Origin: Candidatus Aphodovivens excrementavium
GTDB lineage: Bacteria > Actinomycetota > Coriobacteriia > Coriobacteriales > Eggerthellaceae
Length of the DNA: 36,151 nt
Direction of reading: 5' to 3'
Assembly (NCBI GenBank): GCA_018715935.1
Contig: DVKR01000025.1
Location: 1 to 36,151, forward strand
Under the pieces are notes generated by a model. That model was not told the origin of the DNA. It searched no databases and worked only from the letters and a program-made list of their open reading frames with translations. Below, in pieces: positions 1 to 14,091 of the stretch. The position numbers and the translations under genes were made by a program. Every line of letters starts with the position of its first letter. Position 1 is the first letter of the stretch.

Positions 1-612
1 TACCTGACCCCCGGAAACGGCGCCATGCGCACGGGGTGGGTTCTGGACGGCTCCACTTGGTACTACTGCAGCGGCTCCGGCGCCATGCAGACCGGCTGGC
101 TGAGCACGGGCGGCAGCTGGTACTACCTTAAGAGTTCCGGCGCTATGGTGAGCGCAAGCAGCAAGGACGAAGACAAGATCATCGGCAACAAGGCCTACGT
201 TTTCGCTGATGACGGCAAGTGGATTCCCACCGACACGCAGGCTCAGCGCTTGAAGATCGCCAAGGAACGCGCGGCGGAGTTGGCAGGCTCCCTTTTCACG
301 GGTCCAATGACCCACATGGAGAAGGCGAACGCGGTTTACAACTACCTTCGTCTAAACATTGAGCTGCAAACCGGCACGGCGACTGCGGGCACCTACACCA
401 GCGAAGCGTTCGGTGCGTTCATGTTCGGCAAGGCTTCGAGCGCCGGCTATGCCGAGGCGGCTGCGTTGCTGTGCATCGAAGGCGGCATGAAGGCCACGTC
501 CAGCTCCGACGGCACCACCACGATTGACCTGTACGAGGGAGGTAGAATCGTTGAGGTTACTATGAACGCCTACAGCGGTATAGCTCCGAAGATCGTGGAT
601 GCCGACAAGTAA
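1..612 (+). CDS. Partial cell-wall-binding repeat protein with degenerate transglutaminase-like C-terminus
   Basis: The 5' part lies outside the window; the reading frame is open from base 1. Codons 1-50 encode two to three aromatic/Gly cell-wall-binding repeats (W-Y-Y, then S-G-A-M, then T-G-W), the choline-binding-like type. The remaining ~150 residues resemble a transglutaminase-like fold: a helix with the pattern MTHMEKANAVYNYL, then an FGAFMFGK...GYAEAAALL segment that matches the active-site helix region of bacterial transglutaminase-like proteins (usual form GVCxGYAxA). At the position of the catalytic Cys there is Ser (codon 439-441), and I see no clear His/Asp partners, so the domain is probably not a classical Cys protease or transglutaminase. 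Presumably exported and wall-attached, like the two genes downstream. The repeat assignment is firm; the domain assignment is moderate and rests on pattern recognition. Confidence 0.6.
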   Translation, partial: YLTPGNGAMRTGWVLDGSTWYYCSGSGAMQTGWLSTGGSWYYLKSSGAMVSASSKDEDKIIGNKAYVFADDGKWIPTDTQAQRLKIAKERAAELAGSLFTGPMTHMEKANAVYNYLRLNIELQTGTATAGTYTSEAFGAFMFGKASSAGYAEAAALLCIEGGMKATSSSDGTTTIDLYEGGRIVEVTMNAYSGIAPKIVDADK

Positions 613-647
613 GGCTCAATAAGAGCGTTTGCTTTTTGGTATTGATG

Positions 648-678
648 GGGCGCCGACGATTTGTCGGCGCCCTTTCTT
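648..678 (+). terminator. Rho-independent terminator after the first repeat-protein gene
   Basis: A perfect 10-bp GC-rich stem (648-657 with 663-672), a 5-nt loop and a TTTCTT tail lie 35 bases after the stop codon. The rest of 613-854 shows no gene. A short palindrome (CATGCAAGCATG) sits near 782-793, and no convincing promoter for the next gene could be fixed. Confidence 0.85.
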
Positions 679-854
679 ATGAGAGACCAAAGATAAGCTC
701 TTCCTTCTCGCGCCAAAAATGCGAACCTCTTTTCGCTTCATGAAAAGAAAGCAGATCCCTTTTCGAATAATTTACTCCGCACATGCAAGCATGCGCATTT
801 AGAGGTTAACTTTTGTTGTAAACTTACGCACGTAGGTAGAATCGAGGAGGAAGT

Positions 855-3068
855 ATGGCTAACTCCAAGCAATCTTTGGTTGCCCGGCAAAGCTGGGCAT
901 TGGTGCGCTCTCTTGCGGGGATGCTGGCAGCTTTGGTGCTTGCGCTGGGCGTGGTTTCTCTTGTTGATACCCCGCTGGCGTTTGCCGACAACGTGAGCGA
1001 TTCTTCTGTCAGCCAGCAAAAAGGGCAAGCAGTGGAAGGCTCTGATCAGGAGAGCATGTTGGGTGATGGCGACAGCGCTTCTGCCGATACTGTCGACAAA
1101 GATGCCGCCTCTGATTCCGACGCCGACAATACGGCTGGTGCGGACACTGCGGAGGATGCCGCTCCCGACTCGGAGCCCGATCCGGAACCCGCTCCCGACC
1201 CGGAGCCAGTTGATCCCGAGCCCGACCCCGACGTGCCCACGAAGGCGGGCTGGTTTGAAAACTCCCAGGGTCAGGTTTTCTACTACACCAGCGTTAACGC
1301 AAAGCCCTACACTGGCTGGCTTAAGCTGAGCGGTACATGGTATTACTTGAACCCCAGCAAAGAGGGCGAGCTGGAAACGGGCGTGTTTAAGGTTGGCAAC
1401 GCCTACTATGCGTCGGACAAAAACGGCGCCATGTACGATAACGGCTGGTGCCAGGTAGACGGCACATGGTACTACGCCACGGGCAGCGGCGCCCTGAAGA
1501 CGAGTGGCTGGTTCAAACAGGGCGGCACATGGTATTACTTCTACTCGAATGCCGCGATGGCGACCAATGCTTGGGTTAAAAGCGGCGGTTCGTGGTACTA
1601 CCTCAAGTCTAATGGAGCCATGGCGACCAATGGTTGGGTTAAGGATCTGGATGGTACTTGGTACTACGTTAATTCCTCCGGCAGCATGCTCACCGGCTGG
1701 CAATGGGTTGGTGGAGCGTGGTACTACCTATACGCATCTGGAGCTATGGCTTCGAGCGAATGGGTCTACGACGGCGCTTGGTACTATTTGCGTGAATCCG
1801 GCGCCATGGCAACTGGCTGGGCGCTTGATGGAGAGAACTGGTACTACTTGAATGGCGCAGGCCATATGCTCACCGGCTGGCAATGGGTCGGCGGCGCGTG
1901 GTATTACCTCAACGGTTCGGGTGCGATGCTCACCGGCTGGCAATGGGTCGGTAGTGCGTGGTATTACATGAACAAAAACGGCGCCATGCAAACCGGCTGG
2001 GAGCTTGTAGACGGTACTTGGTACTATCTGAACTCCTCTGGAGCCATGCAGACCGGTTGGGAGAGCATCGGTGGCAAATGGTACTACCTCAACGGTTCGG
2101 GCGAGATGCTCACGGGTTGGCAGAGCATTGGTGGCAAGTGGTACTACCTGAATGGCTCTGGCGCTATGGCAACGGGATGGAAAGAACTCCCCGAAGGTTG
2201 GTATTATCTCAACAGCTCGGGAGCCATGCTCACGGGTTGGCAGAGCATTGGCGGCAAGTGGTACTACCTTGATCCCGCGAACGGCGGCGTTATGGTGGAG
2301 AACACCATCAAGACCATCGGCGGCGCACGCTATTCCTTCACCTCCTCGGGTGCAATGCGGGCGAACGCCCTCATCAACATGGGCGACGGCGTGTGCGCTT
2401 ACGCAAACCCGTCGGGCGCGATTTCCAACATCGGCGTCTATAGCGGCTCCGACGTCATCCTGAAGTCGTCCGGCGGCAAGGTGCTTACCGGTTGGCAGAA
2501 AATCGGCGGCACGTGGTTCTATGCGAACTCTTCGGGCGTGGTGCAGAAGGGCTGGCTGAAGCTTGACGGCACGTGGTACTACCTCGACGAGAACACCGGA
2601 GCCATGGCAACCGGTTGGCGCACCGTGGACGGCAAGAGCTACTACTTCGATTCCTCGGGCGCCTGGCTGGACGGTGGCGCAATGGGTGCTAAGGCTCAAG
2701 GCTATTCCAGCGACACCAACTACCTGATATTGGTTGACAAGAGCGCTCACGAGGTGGGCGTGTTCCGCGGCTCCAAGGGCTCTTGGTCGCTCTACGACAG
2801 CTTCAGCTGTGTGACGGGCGCATCGGGGTCTCCCACTCCGTCGGGAACGTATAAGACCACCGGCTTTAAGCGCGCTTCGCTTTCAACCGACAGCCGTGCA
2901 ATCGACTGCACGCAGATATACGGCGGATATTTCTTCCACTCGGTTCTGGCGTCCGAAAGCGAGCTGGGGCAAAGCCTTTCGCATGGGTGCATCAGGCTTC
3001 CGTGGGCTAAGGCGAAGTGGATCTATAACAACATCGGCGCCGGCACCACCGTGGTAATTTACAACTAG
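855..3068 (+). CDS. Secreted L,D-transpeptidase (YkuD) with ~20 cell-wall-binding repeats
   Basis: This 737-residue protein probably crosslinks peptidoglycan stems (3-3 links) or attaches proteins to them outside the membrane. Residues 1-44 form a signal peptide with a likely AFA|DN cleavage site. Residues ~45-130 are an acidic, Pro/Asp/Glu-rich spacer. Residues ~132-607 carry about 20 W-YY...GAM-TGW repeats of the choline-binding-like type. Residues ~622-737 are a YkuD domain with His695 and the signature SHGCIRL, catalytic Cys712. The ATG is preceded by a strong GAGGAGG ribosome site at 844-850. L,D-transpeptidases of this family act on diamino-acid stems such as meso-DAP, which fits the DAP-type MurE in this window. 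The gene stands alone between two terminators. The wall ligand bound by the repeats (choline, teichoic acid or other glycan) cannot be read from sequence. Confidence 0.93.
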   Translation: MANSKQSLVARQSWALVRSLAGMLAALVLALGVVSLVDTPLAFADNVSDSSVSQQKGQAVEGSDQESMLGDGDSASADTVDKDAASDSDADNTAGADTAEDAAPDSEPDPEPAPDPEPVDPEPDPDVPTKAGWFENSQGQVFYYTSVNAKPYTGWLKLSGTWYYLNPSKEGELETGVFKVGNAYYASDKNGAMYDNGWCQVDGTWYYATGSGALKTSGWFKQGGTWYYFYSNAAMATNAWVKSGGSWYYLKSNGAMATNGWVKDLDGTWYYVNSSGSMLTGWQWVGGAWYYLYASGAMASSEWVYDGAWYYLRESGAMATGWALDGENWYYLNGAGHMLTGWQWVGGAWYYLNGSGAMLTGWQWVGSAWYYMNKNGAMQTGWELVDGTWYYLNSSGAMQTGWESIGGKWYYLNGSGEMLTGWQSIGGKWYYLNGSGAMATGWKELPEGWYYLNSSGAMLTGWQSIGGKWYYLDPANGGVMVENTIKTIGGARYSFTSSGAMRANALINMGDGVCAYANPSGAISNIGVYSGSDVILKSSGGKVLTGWQKIGGTWFYANSSGVVQKGWLKLDGTWYYLDENTGAMATGWRTVDGKSYYFDSSGAWLDGGAMGAKAQGYSSDTNYLILVDKSAHEVGVFRGSKGSWSLYDSFSCVTGASGSPTPSGTYKTTGFKRASLSTDSRAIDCTQIYGGYFFHSVLASESELGQSLSHGCIRLPWAKAKWIYNNIGAGTTVVIYN
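1248..2676 (+). repeat. Tandem cell-wall-binding repeats in the L,D-transpeptidase gene
   Basis: About twenty ~60-bp units encode the pattern G-W-x4-G-x-W-Y-Y-L-x4-G-A-M-x-T. Some units are nearly identical in DNA: 2106-2149 and 2226-2269 differ at one base over 44. This indicates recent unit duplication or homogenisation. Units between 2284 and 2460 are diverged and lack the canonical WYY. Confidence 0.9.
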
Positions 3069-3121
3069 CGCTTTGCGGCAAGTCGTTCGGCTGACGTAAA
3101 GGCTATCGGCAAAAGCCTACC

Positions 3122-3160
3122 GCACATGCACGGAGCACCCCGCTTCGTGCATGTGCTTTT
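3122..3160 (+). terminator. Rho-independent terminator after the L,D-transpeptidase gene
   Basis: An 11-bp perfect stem (3122-3132 with 3146-3156), extendable by four more pairs including one G-T, has a ~5-nt loop and a TTTT tail. It is followed at once by a second hairpin. Confidence 0.8.
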
Positions 3161-3163
3161 ATG

Positions 3164-3184
3164 GAGCCGCGAAGGGCTCTTTTT
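3164..3184 (+). terminator. Second, tandem rho-independent terminator
   Basis: A GAGCC/GGCTC stem (3164-3168 with 3175-3179) is followed by TTTTT. It is short but has a better T-run than the hairpin just upstream, so the two probably act together. Confidence 0.7.
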
Positions 3185-3300
3185 GTAAAGATTATTTCTT
3201 TTGCGGGACAGAGAGCGTCTCAAGGTATGCTCGCTTAAAGGACAAACGAACTAGGACTGCTCAAACGAACCAAAACTGCTCTACATAGGATGCATGCACC

Positions 3301-5517
3301 ATGATGAATGAACCCCTTTCCTTTCGTTTCGCTCACGTCCGCAAGGCTGTAGTCGGCTTGCTCGCCTGCGTGACGGCTTTTGTTACCTGCGCCGCGCTGA
3401 TGATTCCCTCTTCGGCGTTGGCTCAGCCGGCGTCTCAAGCGGGTGACGCGCAGGCTGCCTCCAGTCGAACCTCCGCAACCACCAACGGCGCCATTCACAT
3501 ATTCGCGTTCGACAACTGCGACGCCGTCTTGGTGGAGAGCAACGGCCTTTACGGCATGATCGATTCGGGCGAAGACTCCGATTACCCTTCAGGGAACGAC
3601 TCTCGCTACCCGCTCCGTTCGGGAACCACGATAGGGAAGGGCAAAGAAGAGCAGGTTGTCAGCTATTTGAAGCGGCTCGGCGTGAACTCCAGCAACTTCG
3701 TGTTCTACCTGGGCACGCACGCCCACAGCGATCATATCGGGTCGGCAGACGAAATCATTTGCGAGTTCGAGCCGGACTACGTATACACTCCGCTTTACGA
3801 CGATTCGTACATCACCAACTCCTCCCATCTTTGGGACAACCAGTACGTCTACGACAATCTGCTGGCGGCCGCTGCTGCTGTTGGCGCGGAGATAATCCAG
3901 CAGCCAACTGCCGAGCAGCGAACCTTCACACTGGGCAACCTGACGTTGCAGATCTGCAACTATCGGGACATCACCGACGATTTTCGGGTGGACGACGCCA
4001 ACGATTACTGTTGGGGAGTGAAGGTATCCGACGGCATCAGCTCGGCGTTTCTGGCGGGAGATATCAACAATGTGCTGGGCTCGGAAGATGCGCTTGCGAG
4101 CGAGGTGGGCGAGGTCGACCTCTTGAAGCTGGGTCATCACGGCCACGAAAACTCCAGCACGCCGGCTTACCTGTCTGCCCTCTCTCCGCAGACGGCGGTG
4201 CTTACCGGGTATCGGACGGTTGTCGAAGACAGCGTTCTCAGGCAGCTCTTCGGCCTCAAATGCGACTTCATAACTGCCGCCGACGCCACGGCGCAGGATA
4301 GGGAAGCCATTGTGTGTTCGTTCACATCTCAGGGCATTACCTATAACGTTTCTCAAGAAACCGACGACGTGCAGTTCGCGGTATTCAATGATTCGCCCTA
4401 TGTGGTGGCTCATAGGAATTTCACGCCGGTAGAACTCGACGGCTGGGCTCAAGACGGTGACATCTGGTATTGGTTCGACGACAGCTCCACTGCTACGGAA
4501 GACGAGTGGATTAAGACCGGCGGAGCATGGTACTACCTCAAGCCCACGGCGGAGATGGCCACCGGCTGGGTGCAGGTAGACGGCACTTGGTACTATTGCG
4601 GCGGATCTGGCGCCATGCAGACCGGCTGGCAGAAGGTGAAAGGAGTCTGGTACTACCTGGACGGCTCGGGCGCCATGCAAACCGGCTGGCAGAAGATCGG
4701 CGGCGCGTGGTACTACCTGGATGGCTCCGGCGCCATGCAGACCGGTTGGGTGCAGGTGGACGGCGTCTGGTATTACTTGGACGGATCGGGCGCCATGCTC
4801 ACCGGCTGGCAGAAGATCGGCGGCGCATGGTATTACCTCAAAGGCTCGGGAGCCATGGCCACCGGCTGGCAAAGCGTCGGCGGAACCTGGTACTACCTGA
4901 AAAGCTCCGGCGCCATGGCCACCGGCTGGGTCGACGACAACGGAACCTGGTACTACTGCAACGGATCGGGCGCCATGCAGACCGGCTGGCTCAAGTCGGG
5001 AGGCACGTGGTACTACCTCAACTCCTCCGGCGCGATGGCCGAGGGCTGGAAGAGCGTGGGCGGCGCCTGGTACTACCTCGCCCCCGGCAACGGCGCCATG
5101 CAGACCGGCTGGATCGACGACGACGGCACCTGGTACTACTGCAGCGGCTCGGGCGCCATGCAGACCGGGTGGCTCAAAACGGGCGGTCACTGGTACTACC
5201 TGAAGGGCTCCGGCGCCATGGCCACCGGCTGGCAGAGGGTTGGCGGCATCTGGTACTACCTGAGCGATTCAGGCGCGATGGTTACGGGCGAGCGCGTCAT
5301 CGAGGGCGTGCGCTATACGTTCGACAGCACGGGGGCTTGGATTGGCTCTTCGGTCAAAGAGCCGCCGTCCGAGACGCCATCGTCTGAGGCGCCGCCGTCT
5401 GAGGCGACATCGCCCAAGACTCCGTCGCCCAAGACGCCGCGCGCAGACAATGCCCCCTCGGCGAAACCGCCTGCGCAGGAAAACGCTGATGGGAAGATGG
5501 CGAAGGCCTCGGCATAG
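3301..5517 (+). CDS. Secreted metallo-beta-lactamase-fold hydrolase with cell-wall-binding repeats (Pce/CbpE-like layout)
   Basis: 738 residues. Residues 1-41 form a signal peptide (likely cleavage ALA|QP). Residues ~60-345 are a metallo-beta-lactamase fold: the metal-binding motif H140-A-H142-S-D144-H145, an Asp254 in an AGD loop, and H279/H280/H282 in a GHHGH segment. Residues ~381-680 hold about 15 cell-wall-binding repeats, and the last ~55 residues are a Pro/Ser/Thr/Glu-rich tail. The order of metallo-hydrolase head then choline-binding-type repeats matches pneumococcal phosphorylcholine esterase Pce (CbpE). A phosphodiesterase acting on surface glycans is therefore the best guess; a nuclease-like ComEC/Rec2-type hydrolase is the alternative. 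The start is ATGATG at 3301/3304 with only a weak TAGGA upstream. No classical sortase signal is seen in the tail. Confidence 0.85.
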   Translation: MMNEPLSFRFAHVRKAVVGLLACVTAFVTCAALMIPSSALAQPASQAGDAQAASSRTSATTNGAIHIFAFDNCDAVLVESNGLYGMIDSGEDSDYPSGNDSRYPLRSGTTIGKGKEEQVVSYLKRLGVNSSNFVFYLGTHAHSDHIGSADEIICEFEPDYVYTPLYDDSYITNSSHLWDNQYVYDNLLAAAAAVGAEIIQQPTAEQRTFTLGNLTLQICNYRDITDDFRVDDANDYCWGVKVSDGISSAFLAGDINNVLGSEDALASEVGEVDLLKLGHHGHENSSTPAYLSALSPQTAVLTGYRTVVEDSVLRQLFGLKCDFITAADATAQDREAIVCSFTSQGITYNVSQETDDVQFAVFNDSPYVVAHRNFTPVELDGWAQDGDIWYWFDDSSTATEDEWIKTGGAWYYLKPTAEMATGWVQVDGTWYYCGGSGAMQTGWQKVKGVWYYLDGSGAMQTGWQKIGGAWYYLDGSGAMQTGWVQVDGVWYYLDGSGAMLTGWQKIGGAWYYLKGSGAMATGWQSVGGTWYYLKSSGAMATGWVDDNGTWYYCNGSGAMQTGWLKSGGTWYYLNSSGAMAEGWKSVGGAWYYLAPGNGAMQTGWIDDDGTWYYCSGSGAMQTGWLKTGGHWYYLKGSGAMATGWQRVGGIWYYLSDSGAMVTGERVIEGVRYTFDSTGAWIGSSVKEPPSETPSSEAPPSEATSPKTPSPKTPRADNAPSAKPPAQENADGKMAKASA
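4441..5346 (+). repeat. Tandem cell-wall-binding repeats in the metallo-hydrolase gene
   Basis: About fifteen ~60-bp units, many ending GGCGCCATGCAGACCGG. Units alternate between a WYYL type and a WYYC type. The block around 5078-5226 (PGNGAM, WYYC, WYYL) closely parallels bases 10-150 of the first gene in the window, pointing to duplication or exchange between paralogues. Confidence 0.9.
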
Positions 5518-5680: not shown

Positions 5681-7303
<1,623 letters not shown>

Positions 7304-12582: not shown

Positions 12583-14091
12583 ATGACCAAGACGTGTGCC
12601 CAGCTATTTGAGGGAATGGAGTGCACCATTATAGGCAATCCGGAAGAGGAAGTGTCGGGCATTGCCTATAGAAGCGACAAAGTAAAACCGGGCGATGCGT
12701 TCTTCTGCATTGTCGGGTTCAAAGTGGACGGGCATTCGTTTGCCCAAGACGCCATAGACCGCGGCGCGAAGGTGCTGGTGGTTCAGCGCAAGGTATACCT
12801 TGCGGACGCTACCGACGTTACAGAGGTGGTGGTGTCGGACACGCGTAAAGCCATGGCGCACGTGGCCGCCAACTTCTACGACCATCCGTCGAAAGAGCTT
12901 GCGTTGGTTGGGGTAACCGGCACCAACGGCAAAACCACCACGACGTTTCTGGTGGAGCACATCGCACGCGTCGCCGGAAAGCGCACCGGAGTTATTGGCA
13001 CGGTTGGCGTGAGCGTGGGCAACGAGCATGAGAAGTCTGCGCATACGACGCCCGAGTCTCCCGACCTGCAGTCGCTTTTTGCACGCATGCGCGATGCGCA
13101 CTGCGATGTGGTTGCCATGGAGGTGAGCTCTCATGCGCTGGACCTGCGTCGCACCTGGGCAACGCAGTTCGCGGTGACGGCGTTCACGAACCTTACGCAA
13201 GACCATCTCGACTACCATCACACGTTCGAAGCCTACTTCGAGGCGAAAGCGCTGTTGTTCTCGAAAGACTACCCAGCGAAGCGCGTGATTTGCATAGACG
13301 ACAAATGGGGGCGCGAGCTGCTGCGCCGCTGCTCGGCGGCAGGAGACAGCGTTGTCACCACGGGATTCGACCCTTCTGCTCAAATCCATCCTGGCGAAGT
13401 GACCTACGCTCCCACGCACACGACGGTGGAGCTGCACGTGCGCGGAGAGCGATTCACGTTCGACTACCCGCTGGTAGGTCGCTTCAACGTCTCTAACATC
13501 ATGAACGCGTTTGGCATTGCGCTCCAGTTGGGCATCCCCGCCGAGCTCATCGTCTCTGCGCTTGCGGAGGCGCCGCAGGTTCCCGGAAGGCTCGAGCGCG
13601 TCCATGCCGCCCACGACGGCGGCGTGTCGGTATTTGTCGATTACGCCCACACGCCTGACGCGCTTAAGAAAGCGCTGGCTTCCATCATGTCGCTCACGCC
13701 CGGCAAGACCATCTGCGTGTTCGGCTGCGGAGGGGATCGCGATGCGAGCAAGCGTTCCATCATGGGGCGCGAGGCCCTTGAGGCGGACTACGCCATTGTA
13801 ACCTCTGACAATCCGCGTAGCGAGGATCCGCTGGCTATCATTGCCGATATCGAAAGCGGCATGGGTGCCGGCTCTGGTCGCTACGAAGTGGAGCCCGACA
13901 GGCGCAGCGCCATCGCGCGCGCGCTCGAGGTAGCTCAGTCGGGCGATTCTGTCCTTCTTGCCGGAAAGGGTCATGAAGACTACCAGCTCATTGGCGACAA
14001 AGTGCTGCATTTCGACGACAGGGCGGTTGCGGCCGAAGAGCTGGAGAAGCGTTTCGGCGCCGGTTCGCGCGCCTCGGTCGAGGAGGCGTAA
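12583..14091 (+). CDS. murE: UDP-MurNAc-L-Ala-D-Glu ligase MurE, meso-diaminopimelate type
   Basis: Adds the third stem amino acid to UDP-MurNAc-dipeptide with ATP, in the cytoplasm. 502 residues with the three Mur-ligase domains: N-terminal UDP-binding, central ATPase with GVTGTNGKTTTT, and C-terminal domain with a DNPR box (Asp409-Arg412, SDNPRSEDP). DNPR is the known meso-DAP specificity signature, whereas Lys-adding enzymes have a different box (D-N-P-A/N). An AAGGGGA ribosome site lies 5-11 bases before the ATG, and 39 bases separate it from ftsI. Confidence 0.97.
   Translation: MTKTCAQLFEGMECTIIGNPEEEVSGIAYRSDKVKPGDAFFCIVGFKVDGHSFAQDAIDRGAKVLVVQRKVYLADATDVTEVVVSDTRKAMAHVAANFYDHPSKELALVGVTGTNGKTTTTFLVEHIARVAGKRTGVIGTVGVSVGNEHEKSAHTTPESPDLQSLFARMRDAHCDVVAMEVSSHALDLRRTWATQFAVTAFTNLTQDHLDYHHTFEAYFEAKALLFSKDYPAKRVICIDDKWGRELLRRCSAAGDSVVTTGFDPSAQIHPGEVTYAPTHTTVELHVRGERFTFDYPLVGRFNVSNIMNAFGIALQLGIPAELIVSALAEAPQVPGRLERVHAAHDGGVSVFVDYAHTPDALKKALASIMSLTPGKTICVFGCGGDRDASKRSIMGREALEADYAIVTSDNPRSEDPLAIIADIESGMGAGSGRYEVEPDRRSAIARALEVAQSGDSVLLAGKGHEDYQLIGDKVLHFDDRAVAAEELEKRFGAGSRASVEEA

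Follow-up and report, generated by a model that had tools for sequence, protein, structure and literature searches.

Three adjacent genes at the start of the window most likely represent the end of a phosphocholine wall-decoration locus similar to that of pneumococcus, with an editing esterase of the Pce type, a choline-anchored L,D-transpeptidase (LDT), and a decayed copy of a transglutaminase gene. The best-known examples of phosphocholine-decorated walls and choline-binding proteins come from pneumococcus and related bacteria. In the genome presented here, the reading is based on domain identities, motifs, a fold match, pathway genes, and co-occurrence across genomes. The window, i.e., the whole stretch of DNA analyzed, comprises the first 36,151 bases of contig C17 in a genome (G000) of 2.08 Mb and 54 contigs; the window begins with base 1 of the contig, which cuts off the 5' part of gene 1. 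The features are listed below, with the choline-binding repeats abbreviated as CBRs.

1-612, + strand: gene 1, open reading frame open at the contig start (5' end missing), CBRs and a transglutaminase-like domain
1-153, + strand: at least two CBRs of gene 1
~163-609, + strand: transglutaminase-like domain of gene 1
647-673, + strand: terminator-like hairpin 3' of gene 1 (12 pairs, T-rich tail)
855-3068, + strand: gene 2, open reading frame, CBRs and a predicted YkuD LDT; it begins with a hydrophobic N-terminus resembling a signal peptide and has an acidic spacer
~1311-2675, + strand: ~17 CBRs of gene 2
2721-3059, + strand: C-terminal YkuD domain of gene 2
3122-3156, + strand: strong terminator-like hairpin 3' of gene 2 (15 pairs, TTTT tail)
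3301-5517, + strand: gene 3, open reading frame, Pce/CbpE-type domain and CBRs, with a Ser/Pro/Lys-rich C-terminal tail
3478-4455, + strand: predicted phosphorylcholine esterase domain of the Pce/CbpE type in gene 3
~4460-5328, + strand: ~13 CBRs of gene 3
5702-7303, + strand: pyrG, the first gene of the conserved flank, unlinked to CBR genes in relatives

The tandem repeats of ~20 amino acids by which choline-binding proteins are recognized occur in all three genes, which are all on the + strand; the units are regular (two left in gene 1, ~17 in gene 2, and ~13 in gene 3), and Choline_bind_1 and Choline_bind_3 score far above the Pfam cutoff in each, in agreement with an earlier reading of the sequence as three consecutive genes with one common repeat type. 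The whole genome contains five CBR genes, and the two that lie outside the window encode a GH25 lysozyme and an intact transglutaminase, both on contig C47. Because terminator-like hairpins separate them, genes 1-3 are probably transcribed separately and not as one operon. Their GC content (0.58-0.61) is the same as that of the flank, and composition gives no sign of horizontal transfer. Open frames of up to 533 amino acids on the - strand (window 1-5190) mirror the repeats; they are probably a codon-composition effect of the GC-rich repeats and not genes.

Gene 3 is assigned to the Pce/CbpE type, i.e., the teichoic-acid phosphorylcholine esterases, by sequence and by its modeled fold. The metallo-β-lactamase (MBL) motif THAHSDH is present, and the domain matches the Pce/CbpE structures 12QJ, 1WRA, and 2BIB with E-values of 4.5e-49 to 2.4e-48. 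The AlphaFold2 model of the domain has a pLDDT of 92.6, and its best Foldseek matches are 2BIB and 1WRA (TM 0.81-0.87, RMSD of 1.9 Å to 1WRA), followed by ComEC as the next-best fold match with a TM of 0.66. In 27 aligned sequences, THxHSDH, D195, and H220/H221 are invariant. The C-terminal choline-binding module is recognized by Choline_bind_1 (E = 1e-85) and Choline_bind_3 (E = 2e-67). Similar to Pce/CbpE of Streptococcus pneumoniae (1WRA and 2BIB), gene 3 combines an N-terminal MBL-fold module with C-terminal CBRs and a tail, and the metal motifs and the fold are the same; on the other hand, the sequences are ~30-34% identical, the host is a gut-type actinobacterium, and the esterase is a predicted one. 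Pce strips part of the phosphocholine off teichoic acids (PMC4929436).

The YkuD domain of gene 2 scores 62 bits in Pfam and carries the motif H-x15-SHGCIR, in which SHGC is intact and which conforms to the family pattern HX14-17[S/T]HGC. Hydrophobic N-termini are visible in the translations of both gene 2 and gene 3. The YkuD domain with H-x15-SHGC is common to gene 2 and the YkuD-family LDTs (4XXT and the mycobacterial Ldt structures); unlike these, gene 2 would be anchored by its predicted choline-binding repeats. The domain order, with the repeats first and YkuD last, is the same wherever LDT-CBR proteins were checked. The word choline is absent from the text of a 2025 review on LDTs (PMC12729407), and searches of the open-access literature turned up neither choline-binding LDTs nor phosphocholine in the walls of Eggerthellaceae; within the system, the LDT with its choline anchor is documented least. 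A second YkuD protein of the genome (L112:5033-6877, contig C52) lacks CBRs and contains a PG_binding_4 domain; the genome thus encodes two L,D-transpeptidases with different anchors. In the congener G018, the LDT domain is 62% identical but follows a different N-terminal region, one that weakly matches Y_Y_Y, and the genome contains no CBR gene. The YkuD and MBL-fold modules that had been proposed for genes 2 and 3 are confirmed by these motifs, whereas the description of the MBL hydrolase as part of an undescribed module does not hold for a domain of the Pce/CbpE type. Likewise, the notion that the local genes decorate the envelope is misplaced: the decorator would be LicD, encoded elsewhere, and Pce would remove what LicD adds.

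The repeats are of the choline-binding type, in line with the original prediction, and the host genome also encodes a phosphocholine decoration pathway. Contig C20 (L111:8004-9806) contains a 600-amino-acid fusion of an N-terminal winged helix with LicC-like and LicA-like domains, of which the former matches the pneumococcal CTP:phosphocholine cytidylyltransferase 1JYK (E = 2.8e-40) and the latter the pneumococcal choline kinase 4R77 (E = 6e-19). Full-length relatives of this fusion are found across much of the family, and, as a regulator joined to CDP-choline synthesis, the protein could act as a choline sensor. The fusion is followed by a multispan permease-like open reading frame that looks like LicB; this candidate has no match in Pfam or the PDB. 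The two LicD genes of the genome are on C47 with flippase-like genes beside them. Compared with the pneumococcal lic/tac pathway (LicA, LicB, LicC, LicD1/2, and TacF; PMC13385700), the genome has LicA and LicC homologues, two LicD genes, and flippases next to LicD, but LicC and LicA are fused here and preceded by the winged-helix domain. Searches of the PDB with the flippase candidates, which would correspond to TacF, gave no match. In G017, which belongs to the same genus, contig C48 (53924-63159) contains a LicCA-like gene (54%) and two LicD genes, and there are no CBR proteins; if choline decoration is real in G017, it does not always come with CBR anchoring.

The association between the pathway and the repeats was examined in 138 genomes of the family, with a LicCA orthologue defined as a close relative with an E-value below 1e-200; this threshold was fixed ahead of the LDT-CBR test. 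A LicCA orthologue is present in 16 of 17 genomes with a Pce domain versus 27 of 121 others (p = 1e-8), LicD in 17/17 versus 67/121 (p = 1e-4), and LicCA in 28 of 50 CBR-positive genomes versus 15 of 88 others (p = 3e-6), where the p-values overstate independence, the genomes being related. Pce and LicCA are less than 20 kb apart in eight genomes. For the 30 YkuD relatives that best match gene 2, CBRs are part of the protein in 10/10 genomes with LicCA and in 0/20 of those lacking it (p = 3e-8, with the same reservation). LicD proved too broad as a choline marker: it occurs in 84 of the 138 genomes, its association with CBRs across them is not significant (p = 0.07), and LicCA separates better.

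Choline is the probable ligand of the repeats in genes 1-3. Repeats of the CBR superfamily also bind glycans, and the repeats might instead recognize a polysaccharide or glucan, either the cell's own or one from the host, in which case the proteins would be adhesins, or wall enzymes anchored to a glycan. The match of the gene 3 repeats to those of clostridial toxin A is no worse than their match to pneumococcal choline-binding proteins, and glucansucrase repeats match less well than toxin A repeats; moreover, a LicCA orthologue is missing from 22 of the 50 CBR-positive genomes, so not every CBR need bind choline. However, the same repeats are carried by Pce, whose substrate is phosphocholine, the attachment of CBRs to the LDT tracks LicCA, and LicC, LicA, and LicD are encoded in the same genome; we consider a glycan ligand rather unlikely.

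Gene 1 differs from the other two in the state of its catalytic domain. The transglutaminase-like domain scores 21.3 bits against Transglut_core of Pfam (cutoff, 23) and is 38% identical (E = 5.5e-20) to the domain of the intact C47 transglutaminase. In an alignment with 24 relatives, the Cys (C.GY), His (H.W), and Asp residues are kept by the C47 copy and nearly all the other full-length sequences, whereas the Cys-His-Asp triad is not complete in gene 1: Ser replaces Cys, His is absent, and VDAD near the end may be the Asp, which is probably kept. A frameshift was rejected as the cause of the decay, as the domain continues in none of the other frames. Because the catalytic Cys and His are lost, gene 1 was ruled out as an active transglutaminase and does not add a third enzyme to the set; it is probably a pseudoenzyme, a dead copy that would only bind. 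Continued activity as a transglutaminase or a protease, with Ser in place of Cys and a different base, is quite improbable: the frame is open to the end, the core of the fold aligns, and Asp is probably kept, but there is no His, almost all relatives keep both Cys and His, and a structure model from the single sequence (pLDDT of 42) is too poor for use. Two of the three catalytic modules that had been proposed, YkuD and the Pce type, remain.

The probable origin of gene 1 lies on another contig. C47 ends ~145 bases past its transglutaminase-CBR gene, and its last 117 bases (L038:14700-14816) are identical to 13029-13145, where this gene has its promoter region and first codons; a second gene that starts in the same way therefore follows immediately downstream, in the same orientation. 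The exact 117-base repeat is a sign of a tandem duplication at which the assembly broke. All CBR genes of the genome have a start except gene 1, which is of the same type and on the same strand as the C47 gene. The order C47, a gap inside gene 1, and C17 is very probably correct as the simplest reading, and gene 1 would accordingly be a decayed tandem copy of the C47 gene. C47 contains two LicD genes, two flippase-like genes, glycosyltransferases, a GH25-CBR lysozyme, and the intact transglutaminase-CBR gene, all of which the join would place just upstream of the window. The GH25-CBR protein, outside the window, in the same genome, and presumably at the same locus, resembles the choline-binding GH25 lysozymes of the Cpl-1 and LytC type in combining GH25 with CBRs. 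With the contigs joined in this way, genes 1-3 would be the right-hand end of a phosphocholine wall-decoration locus and not a module of pyrG and xerD.

The neighborhoods in relatives bear on the same question. The original prediction had tied the genes to pyrG, xerD, and the dcw region and had named rarity of the three as neighbors in relatives as evidence against itself; in 20 relatives, two congeners and four genomes with Pce elsewhere among them, no CBR gene was found upstream of pyrG (0/20; ~2-16 kb examined, >10 kb in most), so the three-gene arrangement is not conserved at pyrG/xerD. A dedicated and conserved wall-modification module linked to pyrG/xerD and the division genes is largely refuted and highly improbable, for although genes 1-3 are adjacent in this genome and an LDT-CBR gene beside a Pce-CBR gene recurs elsewhere, CBR genes are absent upstream of pyrG in those relatives, Pce is located away from pyrG in G004, G045, G057, and G103, and terminator-like hairpins split the three genes. 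From the proposed local wall-modification set, the three-enzyme composition and the link to pyrG and dcw fall away, and what stands is a likely role in wall modification for genes 2 and 3, because they carry choline-type repeats in a genome with a phosphocholine pathway.

A scan of genome contigs yielded 505 stretches with a Pce relative, and the best 80 of the 505 were analyzed, 57 with Pce-CBR and 23 without CBRs. An LDT-CBR gene is near Pce-CBR in 7 of these 57 loci, several of which have lic genes; they are from Enterorhabdus sp. P55, Adlercreutzia faecimuris, A. mucosicola, an Atopobiaceae bacterium, an uncultured actinobacterium, Ca. Merdenecus, and Dorea phocaeensis. The Dorea block comprises NlpC/P60-CBR, two LDT-CBR genes, Pce-CBR, a flippase-like gene, and LicD. 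Within the same 80, lic genes are nearby in 20/57 Pce-CBR loci versus 3/23 Pce loci without CBRs, which is only a trend (p = 0.06), the latter loci being shorter. Pce-like domains of ~320-390 amino acids without CBRs or nearby lic genes (L129, L137, and L179-L193) are mostly from rumen and gut Clostridia metagenome-assembled genomes; their substrate may differ.

Taken as the end of a phosphocholine locus, the three genes belong to a system of a known kind, i.e., phosphocholine-anchored wall proteins with a Pce-type editor, of which the dead transglutaminase copy and the choline-anchored LDT are the less familiar parts. Choline would be taken up and converted to CDP-choline by LicB, LicA, and LicC; the LicD enzymes would attach phosphocholine to a wall polymer for export by the flippases; and the CBR proteins would bind phosphocholine from outside. 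As an L,D-transpeptidase, gene 2 would sit on the phosphocholine polymer and there make 3-3 crosslinks or attach proteins, and gene 3 would hydrolyze phosphocholine off the polymer and so set the number of anchor sites. We tentatively suggest, as a possibility still on the doubtful side, that in Eggerthellaceae and some Lachnospiraceae phosphocholine on the wall polymer spatially addresses LDT crosslinking, with the adjacent Pce-type esterase tuning the sites by anchor removal; if true, crosslinking would depend on dietary or host choline.

The exact match between LDT-CBR and the choline pathway makes the ligand of the repeats directly testable. Judging from their gene content, many gut Eggerthellaceae probably make phosphocholine-decorated walls and choline-binding proteins, with an editing esterase. 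Both C-reactive protein and natural antibodies target phosphocholine, and choline serves as a nutrient in the gut; phosphocholine walls in gut Eggerthellaceae would bear on recognition by the host.
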